In this document: positions 1,980 through 23,501 of the stretch, piece after piece
How positions within the stretch are numbered: the stretch's first letter is position 1
How the letters are laid out: each line of letters begins with the position of its first letter
Assembly: GCA_036389795.1 (NCBI GenBank)
Contig: DASVWD010000013.1
Coordinates: forward strand, 1-33,531
Source: Longimicrobium sp.
GTDB lineage: Bacteria; Gemmatimonadota; Gemmatimonadetes; Longimicrobiales; Longimicrobiaceae
Length of the DNA stretch: 33,531 nucleotides
Direction of reading: 5' to 3'
Program-made: the position numbers and the translations under genes
Notes under the pieces: generated by a model
The model's input: the letters and a program-made list of their open reading frames with translations, nothing else
What the model was told of the DNA's origin: nothing
The model's database searches: none

Positions 1980-2499
1980 GGTACCCTCCTGCGCCGAGTG
2001 GACGAATCCCGGAGCACCGGAGCCCCGGAGCCGAGCAGAGACAGCCCGGCACCGATCGTCACCAAGCAAGAGATATTCCACCTTTACGTCTCATAAGATG
2101 CGCAACTGTGGAAACTTTCCTGGGCGGGAGCGGAGAATCCGCCCGTTCAGGCGGATTGCCCTGCGAGCGAAATGACACCACCGCTCACAGGGCGGAGCTC
2201 ATGGTTGCCACGGTTTGCGAAGGAGGAGCCGCGGGTCTCGGCGAGGCAGCGACGCTGCGGTGTCCGGCGCACCGTGCTGCCTGGTCGGGCACGCTCCCCC
2301 GAACCGGCCTGGACGCTCCTGGCGCCGGTGGGGATGGACGCCGGGCGGTAGCGGCGCCGGGTCAGGGCTCCCGCCGTCGCGCGGCGTCCGCATTTACGCA
2401 CTTCCCCACTCCCCCCGCGCGCCTTATCCTTGGGCGCACCCTCGACTCCTCGCCCGTCGAGACCGCCCGCGCTCTTTTTCCCGCCGCGGCCCGTTCCCG
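1980..2499. other. Divergent intergenic region with one hairpin
   Basis: This 520-bp spacer separates the minus-strand protease from the plus-strand NRPS and must hold both promoters. The stretch 2060-2120 is more AT-rich than the rest and is the likely promoter area of the protease, but no clear hexamer pair was found. An 8-bp perfect stem with a 6-base loop lies at 2136-2157 (AATCCGCC paired with GGCGGATT). Open frames crossing the spacer have no ribosome binding site and look like extensions of the flanking genes. Confidence 0.5.
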
Positions 2500-6507
<4,008 letters not shown>

Positions 6508-6577: not shown

Positions 6578-6723
6578 GGGCGTGTCCCTCCGCTGCGCTC
6601 CGGGCCGGGCTGCGCGCGCGGTAGGGCACGATACGACCGTGCCCAACCGCGCCGGGCCCGCGTCGGCCGAAACAGCCCGGCCGCCACGGTCCCGGCCCTG
6701 TCGGGCGCGCATCCCTCACGCGG
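6578..6723 (+). repeat. Dispersed structured repeat, family A, copy 1
   Basis: A 146-bp element that recurs in opposite orientation at 15630-15776. The outer parts (about 50 bases at the left and 35 at the right) are nearly identical in both copies. The middle differs but folds the same way: a 7-bp stem at 6624-6630/6638-6644 (GGGCACG with CGTGCCC) and a second stem at 6664-6669/6778-equivalent positions 6678-6683 (CGGCCG with CGGCCG). It is non-coding and lies between the NRPS and the receptor gene. Confidence 0.85.
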
Positions 6724-10817: not shown

Positions 10818-10855
10818 GCATTGACACTATAGTGTAATAACACTATGCTGTTAAT
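10818..10855 (+). promoter_or_regulatory. Left inverted repeat with sigma70-like promoter
   Basis: An AT-rich island in GC-rich DNA, 27 bp upstream of the ATPase gene. It contains TTGACA (10821-10826) and TATGCT (10844-10849) with exactly 17 bases between. The spacer holds the perfect 12-bp palindrome ACACTATAGTGT (10824-10835), a good operator candidate. The 38-bp segment is the reverse complement of 12401-12438 at about 31 of 38 positions, 20 of 22 in the core. Confidence 0.8.
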
Positions 10856-10882
10856 CTCTCCACGACCACTTACACCGGCCCC

Positions 10883-12366
10883 ATGGCGATTCCGAAGCTG
10901 CCCCTACCACCCCTGGTCGACCGCGAGCGGGAATTGAAGGAGCTGCGCTCCATGGTGGAGCGGGGCGGGCCGGCGCTCGCGCTGCTGTACGGCCGCCGGC
11001 GGGTGGGAAAGACATTCCTCCTGGACCACGCCTTCGAGGGGCGGCGGTTCTTCTACTTCCTGGCGGGCGACACCACGCCGGAGCTGAACAAGCAGGAGCT
11101 GCTGCGCGAGATCGCCCCTCTCCTCTCCGACCCCGCCGACGCGGACCCGTCGCTCTTCCCGAGCTGGCGCAACGTGTTCCGGCTCTTCGCCGACCTGGCC
11201 GGCGAGGGGCCCTTCACCGTGGTGCTCGACGAGTTCCAGTACCTGCTGGGAGGCGAGGAGGACATCGCCTCCCAGCTCATGGCGGTGTGGGACCGCGAGC
11301 TGCGCGGGCGCCCGCTGGTGCTGGTGGCTGCGGGTCGGCGGTGGGGACCATGGAGCGGCTGGAGCACGGGGCAGGCCCGCTCTACGGGCGCTGGAACTGG
11401 GCCGCCCGGCTGCGCCCGTTCGACTACTTCGACGCCGCGCGCATGCTCGGCGAGCGGCCGGCGCGCGAGAAGGCGCTGGCGTACGGCATCCTGGGCGGCA
11501 CGCCGCGCTTCCTGGCCATCCTGCGCCCCGGCGAGCCCCTGGCGGGCCGGGCGGCCGAAACGGTCCTCTCGCCGCGCGGCGAGGTGCACATCCAGCTGGA
11601 GCGGGTGGTCGAGCAGGAGAAGGGAATCCGAGACCCCGCCGAGTACCGCGCCGTTCTCGCCGCGATCGCGGCCGGGAAGACGCAGATCGAGGAGATCGCC
11701 GGCGCCACGGGGCTCGGAGACCGGCCGTACGTGGTCCGCCGGGCCGTGCGCGTGCTCGAGGAGCTGGAGCTGGTCTGGCGCGAGCGGAACTTCGACGCAC
11801 CTCCCAAGGCGGCGTACCGGTACCGCATCGCCGACAACGCGGTGCGCTTCTGGTACCGGTTCGTGCACCCGAACCGCAGTCTGCTGGAGACCGGCGACGC
11901 GCTGGGCGTCTGGGAGGCGCGCGTGGAGCCGCTCCTGAACGACTACATGGGGAAGGTGTTCGAGCGCCTGGTGCGCGAGGCCTTCACCCGCTGCCACGCC
12001 TCCTGGGGTCTGCCGGCCGCCGGCGAGTGGGCGCGCTGGGAAGGGCGCGACCGCAACCGGCGCAGCATCGAGGTGGACCTGGTGGCGCGGCTGGAGGACG
12101 GCCGCATCCTCGCGGGCGAGGTCAAGTGGTCGACCCGCCCGGTGGGGAGCGACGTGCTCACCGACCTCCTGCGCGACCTCGACGACCTGGGGCGCTCCGG
12201 GCAGGGGTGGGCCAGGGACGCCCTCTCCGACTCACGCTCCGCGGGCTTCCTCTTCGTCGCCTCGACGGCGTTTACCGCGGAGTTCCGGACCCGCGCGAGG
12301 AAGGACCCGCGCATCCGGCTGGTGACGCTGGAGGAACTCTACGCGGGGGCCGCCCCCTCGCCTTGA
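10883..12366 (+). pseudogene. AAA ATPase + DUF234 (PD-(D/E)XK-like) protein, frameshifted
   Basis: Two overlapping frames together give one protein of about 494 residues. The first frame carries Walker A GRRRVGKT (37-44) and Walker B VVLDEFQ (113-119), as in the archaeal-type ATPase_2 family. It reads correctly to about 11323. Family logic then requires CGSAVGTMERL, which is found one frame over starting at 11329, so one base appears to be missing near 11324-11328. The second frame continues with a winged-helix-like segment and a C-terminal DUF234 domain, with EVDLV and GEVKW (12070-12129) matching a PD-(D/E)XK nuclease core. No slippery heptamer is evident. It could be a true decay mutation or a sequencing error. 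Inverted repeats flank it. Confidence 0.85.
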
Positions 12367-12400
12367 CCGTCCCGACCACCTCCTTCGCGTTGCAAATCCT

Positions 12401-12438
12401 ATTACCATTATAGTATTATTACACTGTAGTGTTAATAC
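12401..12438 (-). promoter_or_regulatory. Right inverted repeat with minus-strand promoter
   Basis: This is the partner of the repeat at 10818-10855, placed 35 bp after the ATPase stop. On the minus strand it reads TTAACA (12435-12430), 17 bases, then a perfect TATAAT (12412-12407). It therefore points back into the ATPase gene and would make antisense RNA. The half-conserved palindrome ACACTGTAGTGT lies at 12421-12432. No minus-strand gene is available for it to serve. Confidence 0.7.
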
Positions 12439-14236: not shown

Positions 14237-14575
14237 CTACTGCGGTCCCTTCTGTTCCCCGATGTAGACGACCTCACCGGGGCGAATGTTCTGCAGCGCC
14301 GCGTTTACCTGTGGGATGAGCGGCGCCAGGTCTGCGCGGCGGTTGCTCGGCGCGCGCAGGATGACGATGCCGAGCGACAACGCGCTCACGTTCTGCTGGT
14401 GCGGGATGCCCCGGTCCATCGTGACGAAGGCGTCGAACTCCGTCTGGGCGGCCCGGAGCAGTGCCCCGTTCTTCATGCCGTCCCACCCGCGTTCCAGCAC
14501 GGTCCAGACTTCGAGCTGCGGGTCGAAGAGGGGCTTGAGCCGGTGGTCGAGCTGTTCGTCAAGCAGCACGCGCAT
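14237..14575 (-). CDS. DUF5615 PIN-like toxin candidate
   Basis: A 112-residue protein starting MRVLLDEQLDHRL, with later AFVTMDRGIPHQQN. Both match the DUF5615 PIN-like family, which has the early Asp-Glu and mid-chain T-x-D acidic residues of PIN RNases. It would act as a ribonuclease toxin. An alternative ATG six codons upstream (14593) gives 118 residues. The gene starts inside the last 17 bases of the DUF433 gene, the usual antitoxin-toxin order. RNase activity is inferred from the fold only. Confidence 0.85.
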   Translation of the reverse strand: MRVLLDEQLDHRLKPLFDPQLEVWTVLERGWDGMKNGALLRAAQTEFDAFVTMDRGIPHQQNVSALSLGIVILRAPSNRRADLAPLIPQVNAALQNIRPGEVVYIGEQKGPQ

Positions 14576-14783
14576 GGCCGCCGAGTGCAGCACGGAGCGC
14601 GAGCTCCAGGAACGCCTCGGCCTGCTCGCGGCGTACGTTGGGGAAGCCGGCCAGGAAGTCTTCGAGCGTCTCCCCGGCCTTCAGGTGGGCGATCAGGCTC
14701 TCGACCGGCACGCGCGTACCCGCGAACACCGGCGTGCCGCTCATGACCTCGGGGTCCACCGTGATGATCCGATCCCGCTCCAT
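14559..14783 (-). CDS. DUF433 antitoxin candidate
   Basis: A 74-residue protein with the DUF433 hallmark VMSGTPVFAGTRVPVESL, followed by a helical segment (GETLEDFLAGFP) and a C-terminal helix. DUF433 proteins have a small helix-turn-helix-like fold and commonly precede DUF5615 PIN-like toxins as antitoxin and autorepressor. The ATG at 14783 is preceded by AGGAG at good distance; a longer open frame to 14816 lacks this. It overlaps the toxin gene by 17 bases, so translation is coupled. Confidence 0.9.
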   Translation of the reverse strand: MERDRIITVDPEVMSGTPVFAGTRVPVESLIAHLKAGETLEDFLAGFPNVRREQAEAFLELALRAALGGHARAA

Positions 14784-15629: not shown

Positions 15630-15776
15630 CCGCGTGAGGGATGCGCGCCCGACAGGGCCGGGACGCCGCCGCCACAGGGGTATCGTGGCGGCGGTGGCCC
15701 GGCGCGGTTGGGCAGCGTTGTTTGCTGCCCTACCGCGCGCGCAGCCCGGCCCGGAGCGCAGCGGAGGGACACGCCC
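15630..15776 (-). repeat. Dispersed structured repeat, family A, copy 2
   Basis: The reverse-orientation partner of 6578-6723. Its central stem is GGGCAGC (15710-15716) with GCTGCCC (15724-15730), where copy 1 has GGGCACG with CGTGCCC, so two base pairs are swapped on both sides. Its second stem is 10 bp (15666-15675 with 15685-15694) and unrelated in sequence to that of copy 1. The flanking 35-50 bases are almost identical between copies. Confidence 0.85.
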
Positions 15777-15782
15777 GAACGG

Positions 15783-18032: not shown

Positions 18033-18359
18033 CTACTGGTCGCAGTACGGCGGGCAGGTGAACTGGTCGTAGGTCATGCACGGCTCCTCACACGAGTAGC
18101 AGGAGTAGTAGGCGCAGGTGTACTCGTTCTGGCAGGTGTACTCGCAGCTGAGGCAGGTAGCGTCGTCGCAGGTGTTCTGGCACGTCGCGGGGCAGGTGGC
18201 GCAGCAGGTGTTGCAGCACGTACAGCAGCACGGGCAGCAGCAGCAATACGGACAGTACTCCTGCTCGTTCGCGCGCACGGTGCCGCCGCGTTCGGCGCCA
18301 CGGGCGGTGTCGAAGGACTCGACCACCAGCGCGTCCAGGTCCAGTCTGAGCTTCTTCAT
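18033..18359 (-). CDS. Candidate RiPP precursor, extremely Cys-rich (24 Cys)
   Basis: A 108-residue peptide. The ATG at 18359 has AGGAG seven bases upstream. Residues 1-35 are a charged leader (MKKLRLDLDALVVESF, then GGTV) without cysteine. The remaining 73 residues contain 24 Cys, first as clusters (YCCCC, PCCC, TCC, TCC), then as short repeats ending in T-C or S-C (CPATC, CQNTC, CEYTC, YSC). The leader matches that of the 69-aa peptide at 23292 and resembles pinensin-type lanthipeptide leaders common in Longimicrobium. T/S next to C would suit lanthionine formation, but metal binding is an alternative. No LanB, LanC, LanM, radical SAM or peptidase-transporter gene is nearby. Confidence 0.82.
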   Translation of the reverse strand: MKKLRLDLDALVVESFDTARGAERGGTVRANEQEYCPYCCCCPCCCTCCNTCCATCPATCQNTCDDATCLSCEYTCQNEYTCAYYSCYSCEEPCMTYDQFTCPPYCDQ

Positions 18360-23291: not shown

Positions 23292-23501
23292 ATGAAAAAG
23301 ATTCGGCTGGATCCCGAGAATCTTCGTGTTGAATCGTATGTCGTCAACGACGAAGACAGGTTGCGGCCCGGAACAGTTTTCGGCCACAGTGAGGGCGAGT
23401 CGATCGTTACCTGTAAGAGTTGTGATTTCAGTGGGTGCGACCGGACCTGCGTCAAGACTTGCTACGATTGCGAGCCGGTGCCCACCGCGATGACCGTGTA
23501 G
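23292..23501 (+). CDS. Candidate RiPP precursor (pinensin-type leader)
   Basis: A 69-residue peptide. The ATG at 23292 has GAGGTGA upstream. The leader MKKIRLDPENLRVESY is followed by a GTV motif, then a core with six Cys: SIVTCKSC, FSGC, DRTC, VKTC and YDC. Four of the six are directly preceded by Thr or Ser. The leader aligns with the 24-Cys peptide encoded at 18359-18033. Lanthipeptide-like modification is inferred; no modification or export gene is present within the window. Base composition is lower in GC than the flanks, and 20-bp direct repeats bracket the gene. Confidence 0.85.
   Translation: MKKIRLDPENLRVESYVVNDEDRLRPGTVFGHSEGESIVTCKSCDFSGCDRTCVKTCYDCEPVPTAMTV

Follow-up and report, generated by a model that had tools for sequence, protein, structure and literature searches.

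In the genome of a Longimicrobium species, a single gene for an ATPase joined to a nuclease-like domain lies between two short repeats in inverted orientation, an arrangement that raises the question of whether the repeats are the ends of a mobile element or belong to the gene that they enclose. The sequence-only reading of the locus had favored the former and described a 1.6-kb unit resembling a mobile or invertible cassette that carries no standard transposase. Here, we consider the locus within its window (the whole stretch of DNA that was analyzed, 33,531 nt) and among its homologues. Genes of this kind, which encode an ATPase_2 and a DUF234 domain, occur widely across archaea and bacteria, where they count as candidates for phage defense without a known mechanism. 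We conclude that the feature is real but was misread as transposon-like ends. With a probability of roughly 0.7, the unit would be a self-regulated, single-gene ATPase-nuclease locus that carries an autoregulatory operator array.

Two palindrome arrays around one ATPase-nuclease gene

The repeats that bracket the gene are not a chance match. When the two arms are compared in inverted orientation, 30 of 36 nt pair (83%), whereas the best inverted 36-nt match in 300 trials with block-shuffled flanks reached at most 25. The uniqueness of the arms in the genome comes from pattern searches: a 26-nt core has two sites in the window (0 expected) and two in the 7.5-Mb genome, both at the ATPase-nuclease gene, and a looser 28-nt arm pattern had no further site in 21 family genomes. 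Each arm consists of two palindromes close to AACACTATAGTGTTA with centers 16 bp apart, which is why the arms match in direct orientation as well, at 27 of 36 nt. For such near-symmetric arms, the label "inverted" is therefore not a strong statement.

The upstream arm coincides with the core promoter of the gene, as a sigma70-like promoter lies inside it (−35 TTGACA at 10821-10826, a 17-bp spacer, and −10 TATGCT at 10844-10849). The downstream arm of the window copy reads TTAACA-17-TATAAT on the minus strand, which is antisense and promoter-like. The earlier statement that there is no clear target duplication stands, since a target-site-duplication search at the window locus found direct repeats of at most 4 bp outside the arms.

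Table 1. Positions of the arrays, of the parts of the gene, and of arrays found without a gene
Feature	Position	Strand	Remarks
5' array	10820..10855	+	palindromes 10823-10837 and 10839-10853, centers 16 bp apart
N-terminal gene part, AAA+ ATPase (ATPase_2, PF01637)	10883..11336	+	Walker A GRRRVGKT, Walker B VVLDEFQYL
Single-base frameshift compared with homologues	11332..11340	+	splits the window gene into two frames
Remaining gene: winged helix, then DUF234 / PD-(D/E)XK domain	11336..12366	+	IEVD...GEVK motif
3' array	12401..12436	-	two palindromes 16 bp apart; 35 nt past the stop codon
Solo palindromic array, L268 (G006:C110)	4124-4153		no ATPase
Solo palindromic array, L192 (G008:C30)	4364-4421		no ATPase
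Solo palindromic array, L269 (G002:C44)	4112-4157		no ATPase; degenerate

Between the arms there is one ATPase-nuclease gene, as had been read, although not one open frame. Because the frame outside the shift is well preserved and the window protein has 67% identity to a Gemmatimonadota homologue (L042), the frameshift is either a recent lesion (mutation) or a sequencing or assembly error. Both of the domains named earlier exceed the curated cutoffs of their models: ATPase_2 scored 46.9 bits against a cutoff of 33.2, and DUF234 (PF03008) scored 58.2 bits against 22.5. The PADLOC model PDC-S27 matches the two halves of the gene (E values of 1e-15 and 3.5e-14) and most of the length of intact homologues (1e-31 to 1e-56), and this candidate model is the sole basis for a putative role in defense.

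Structure prediction used L043, a homologue with an intact gene (pLDDT 93). The L043 model was closest to the archaeal ATPases 2qen (Z 20.9) and 2fna (Z 20.1), followed by NLR and CED-4 proteins (Z about 15), and it matched the origin-DNA-bound Orc1/Cdc6 protein 2qby with a Z of 14.3. Folded separately (pLDDT 94), the C-terminal domain of L043 took up a PD-(D/E)XK fold, as the DUF234 assignment had suggested, with 1y88 as a match at Z 11.0 and lower matches to EndoMS (Z 9.1) and MspJI (Z 8.6) and also to Can2 and SduA. On these models, the protein is best read as an AAA+ ATPase of an ORC/STAND-like type that also has a winged helix and a PD-(D/E)XK domain. The window protein retains the acidic and ExK residues (IEVD and GEVK). 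In a sister subclade, whose operators are of the TTGCATGCAA or TTGTATACAA type, the glutamate of ExK is replaced by A, S, G, or T, so the family as a whole cannot be presumed to have nuclease activity. The loci concerned (L015, L018, L020, L021, L037, and relatives) have retained their arrays. Among them, L037 is an intact homologue from the window's own genome.

Several other features of these genomes were recorded. The window's own genome holds a third, divergent homologue (G000:C141:160116-161504), and a partial, decayed second copy of the ATPase gene lies near the intact one at L113 (1596-2044). Within the window, a long open reading frame at 2215-6507 looks by eye like a condensation-adenylation-thioesterase NRPS module. 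Two small Cys-rich peptides, at 18033-18359 (minus strand) and 23292-23501 (plus strand), have nearly the same leaders (MKKLRLDLDALVVES and MKKIRLDPENLRVES) and no Pfam or NCBIfam match; they are possibly ribosomal peptide natural products. A dispersed repeat with two window copies in opposite orientations, at 6578-6722 and 15631-15779, also occurs in genomes G002 and G008.

Promoter arrays in the family and their match to the protein

We collected homologues from 61 related genomes and by scanning 84,980 species, and we compared the 200 nt upstream of 85 family members with 167 control regions that precede other open frames at the same loci; block shuffles served as a further control. Direct repeats at a spacing of 15 bp were present at 42 of the 85 loci compared to 4 of the 167 controls, and those at 16 bp were present at 21 loci and in none of the controls. 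Combined, the two spacings account for 74% of the upstream regions versus 2.4% of the controls, and the remaining spacings between 10 and 23 showed no enrichment in the 85 regions. These counts are lower bounds, because arrays farther upstream than the 200 nt scanned, such as that of L042, escape them. The repeats are palindromic, and the arrays have only two to five units. At many loci, the array overlaps, abuts, or directly follows a sigma70-like promoter, and at several it comes immediately after a perfect TTGACA-17-TATAAT. An array over the promoter is thus a feature of most ATPase_2-DUF234 genes in bacteria and archaea. This result bears, with a mixed outcome, on two ways in which the sequence-only reading could have failed. 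The downstream repeat is missing from homologues outside the genus. The upstream one, found in most family members, does lie across a promoter, though only that of ATPase-nuclease genes.

The spacing differs by clade. After the proteins were thinned to less than 70% identity, 19 of 24 clade 1 members had the 16-bp spacing and 20 of 26 clade 2 members had the 15-bp spacing; no clade 1 member had 15 bp, and no clade 2 member had 16 bp. The window protein belongs to the 16-bp clade. All 12 of the plasmid copies, a nonrandom selection from rhizobia, haloarchaea, Fusobacteriota, Rhodothermus, and Clostridia, have a 15-bp array just upstream. The literature searched, which covered mostly nonsubscription papers, holds no description of these arrays, and DUF234 as a whole word occurs there in one unrelated paper only. 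A family-wide array with a clade-specific spacing seems to be undescribed in that literature.

The sequence of the palindrome goes with the protein and not with the host. Operator similarity tracks protein identity in both clades (Mantel r of 0.55 in clade 1 and 0.70 in clade 2; 0 of 2,000 permutations). Among hand-chosen pairs, related proteins from different phyla have 13 to 14 of 14 operator bases in common, while different copies inside one genome share 8 to 11 of 14. In clade 1, covariation between operator and protein, corrected for identity, is concentrated in the winged helix; this signal is weak (P = 0.014), with 5 of the top 20 covarying columns in the winged helix versus 1.7 expected, and it is absent from clade 2. 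Arrays located at promoters could also serve a host regulator or some other shared factor that controls the gene family. This explanation is very improbable and already disfavored, because palindromes differ within one genome and are common to related proteins across phyla, and because the window array occurs in its genome only at the ATPase-nuclease gene.

The locus thus has the two marks of an autoregulatory operator, namely, an array at the gene's own promoter and a specificity that follows the protein. From these two observations, we infer that the protein binds to its own array and controls the promoter of its gene. In such a self-regulated locus, an ATP-controlled oligomer of the protein would occupy the array and repress the gene's promoter. 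A cue, perhaps an invader, would then free the protein, and its PD-(D/E)XK domain could act on nucleic acid. The same fold and repeats might instead suggest an initiator related to Orc1/Cdc6, with the arrays as origin-like, iteron-like sites. The similarity to a DNA-bound Orc1/Cdc6 protein, the fixed spacing of repeats adjoining the gene, and the many plasmid-borne copies are in keeping with this idea, but the genes are single and scattered over chromosomes and large plasmids, and arrays of so few units coincide with promoters, which makes an origin function quite improbable.

The downstream array and the movement of the gene

Autoregulation alone leaves the role of the downstream array unexplained. 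An array matching the upstream one follows the gene in 8 of 13 copies in the genus, compared to 1 of 83 others (Fisher P = 8e-8), and the single match outside the genus is an AT-rich chance match. Between the stop codon and the start of a downstream array lie 0 to about 110 nt. The downstream arrays comprise at least four different palindromes (operator types) and occur in both protein clades. They are present whether the next gene runs in the same or the opposite direction; as 3 of the 8 next genes face the other way, we ruled out that the array is the next gene's promoter. The second array is a peculiarity of the genus Longimicrobium and hints at gain or loss of the gene between arrays.

For the self-regulated locus, the second array is best explained as a genus-specific duplicate behind the gene. 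Right behind the stop codon, it would offer a second nucleation point, from which a loop could be closed over the gene or transcription from behind could be blocked. It is improbable that the downstream arm is a functionless remnant, for example, of an earlier copy or of an array duplication. Its restriction to 8 of 13 copies in one genus and the less symmetric palindrome of the window's 3' arm, compared to the 5' arm, would suit a remnant; its constant position, the variety of operator types, and the retention of a matching sequence argue against one.

Comparisons between genomes show that the gene does move. The copies at G000:C1 and G018:C302, which come from different genera, share 78% identity that ends at the gene. 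Copies of the Moorella type are 97% identical next to a neighboring region with 72% identity. In Rhizobium plasmids that are otherwise 98% identical, a 1,648-bp unit stands in place of 2,161 bp of a kinase-regulator locus, and this replacement ruled out the present/absent pair as an insertion. The unit that spreads among unrelated loci is the size of the gene. One site carries an array both with and without the gene: G006:C110 has an array in a genome without any ATPase hit, and G005:C192, from a sister genome, has array plus ATPase at the orthologous site, with flanks that are 93% identical and no downstream array. This pair shows that the gene was gained or lost at an array, which does not in itself give the mechanism.

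No such pair was seen for the window copy, with no syntenic junction among 10 genus genomes. The downstream GHL10 gene is present in all 10, and the upstream aldo/keto reductase is in none of the 9 others. (A DUF5615 protein adjoins the GHL10 gene at 14237-14593 on the minus strand.) At the L039 locus (G008:C89), the genomes compared gave no clean junction either; three genomes keep the left flank as far as the array, and the right flank is conserved in G009 alone, where the equivalent site contains another 6.8 kb. A domain search found one gene and no transposase domain in the unit, in agreement with the sequence-only reading, and there was no recombinase in the unit, which is known from one assembly and in one orientation. 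None of the 21 family genomes holds another copy with the same ends, and at the loci compared we found no target-site duplication, circle, or clean excision or insertion junction. Together with the near symmetry of the arms, and with an upstream arm that is a promoter array present with or without a second arm, these results do not support the repeats as terminal ends of a mobile or invertible unit. What survives of the proposed mobility is movement of a gene-sized unit, bracketing in the genus, and one site with an array and no gene.

Arrays could nonetheless bound a cassette, as integration or excision ends of which a solo array is left when the gene departs, the agent being the ATPase-nuclease itself or recombination between arrays. 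Bracketing close to the gene irrespective of the next gene's orientation, the gene-sized units at unrelated loci, and the solo arrays at G008:C30 and G006:C110 speak for a cassette. We consider it unlikely, given the lack of duplications, identical copies, and clean insertions at the loci compared, the near absence of downstream matches outside the genus, and the fact that half of the bracketed copies no longer have the ExK glutamate; moreover, without a downstream array in G005, excision between arrays is not needed at that site. It is likewise doubtful that the arrays are both operators and the ends of a minimal cassette, in which an ORC-like AAA+ nuclease would bracket itself and be gained or lost between arrays, leaving solo arrays behind. 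A genus with two-sided and solo arrays provides a natural setting in which to test for such cassette-like coming and going. For the self-regulated locus, an array matched to its protein makes the DNA target readable from the genome beside each gene and lets binding and regulation be tested together, and the rule of 15- or 16-bp spacing should show how the protein assembles.

Relation to known systems

The nearest described family is PDC-S27, whose model matches the window gene and whose domain order (ATPase_2 plus DUF234) is identical to it. PDC-S27 is abundant in archaea, and most PADLOC candidate families of this sort await validation (PMC12988326). Neither a function nor an operator array of PDC-S27 is described in the literature searched, and the two-sided arrangement of arrays sets the window's genus apart. 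The archaeal Walker-type ATPases SSO1545 (2fna) and PABY2304 (2qen) are alike in the AAA+ and winged-helix parts (Z 20 to 21 over about 295 residues), but the match stops near model residue 318, before the nuclease domain, at 19 to 26% identity. In a STAND/MNS comparison by fold, these two were also the best matches, with NLR/CED-4 at a Z of about 15. Orc1/Cdc6 initiators share AAA+ plus winged helix and repeats near the gene, whereas the window family adds a C-terminal PD-(D/E)XK domain and has short arrays at the promoter.

Insertion sequences resemble the unit in having one gene between inverted repeats and in spreading horizontally. The window unit differs from them in lacking a transposase, a target-site duplication, and dispersed identical copies, and its arms are palindromic arrays, the upstream one being the promoter region. 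Tandem palindromic operators are known from autoregulated genes, for example, as ArgR boxes and toxin-antitoxin operators. As in these, the arrays described here lie over the promoter and are probably bound by the encoded protein; the window family differs in being a single-gene ATPase-nuclease, in the 15- or 16-bp spacing of its clades, and in the second array of one genus.
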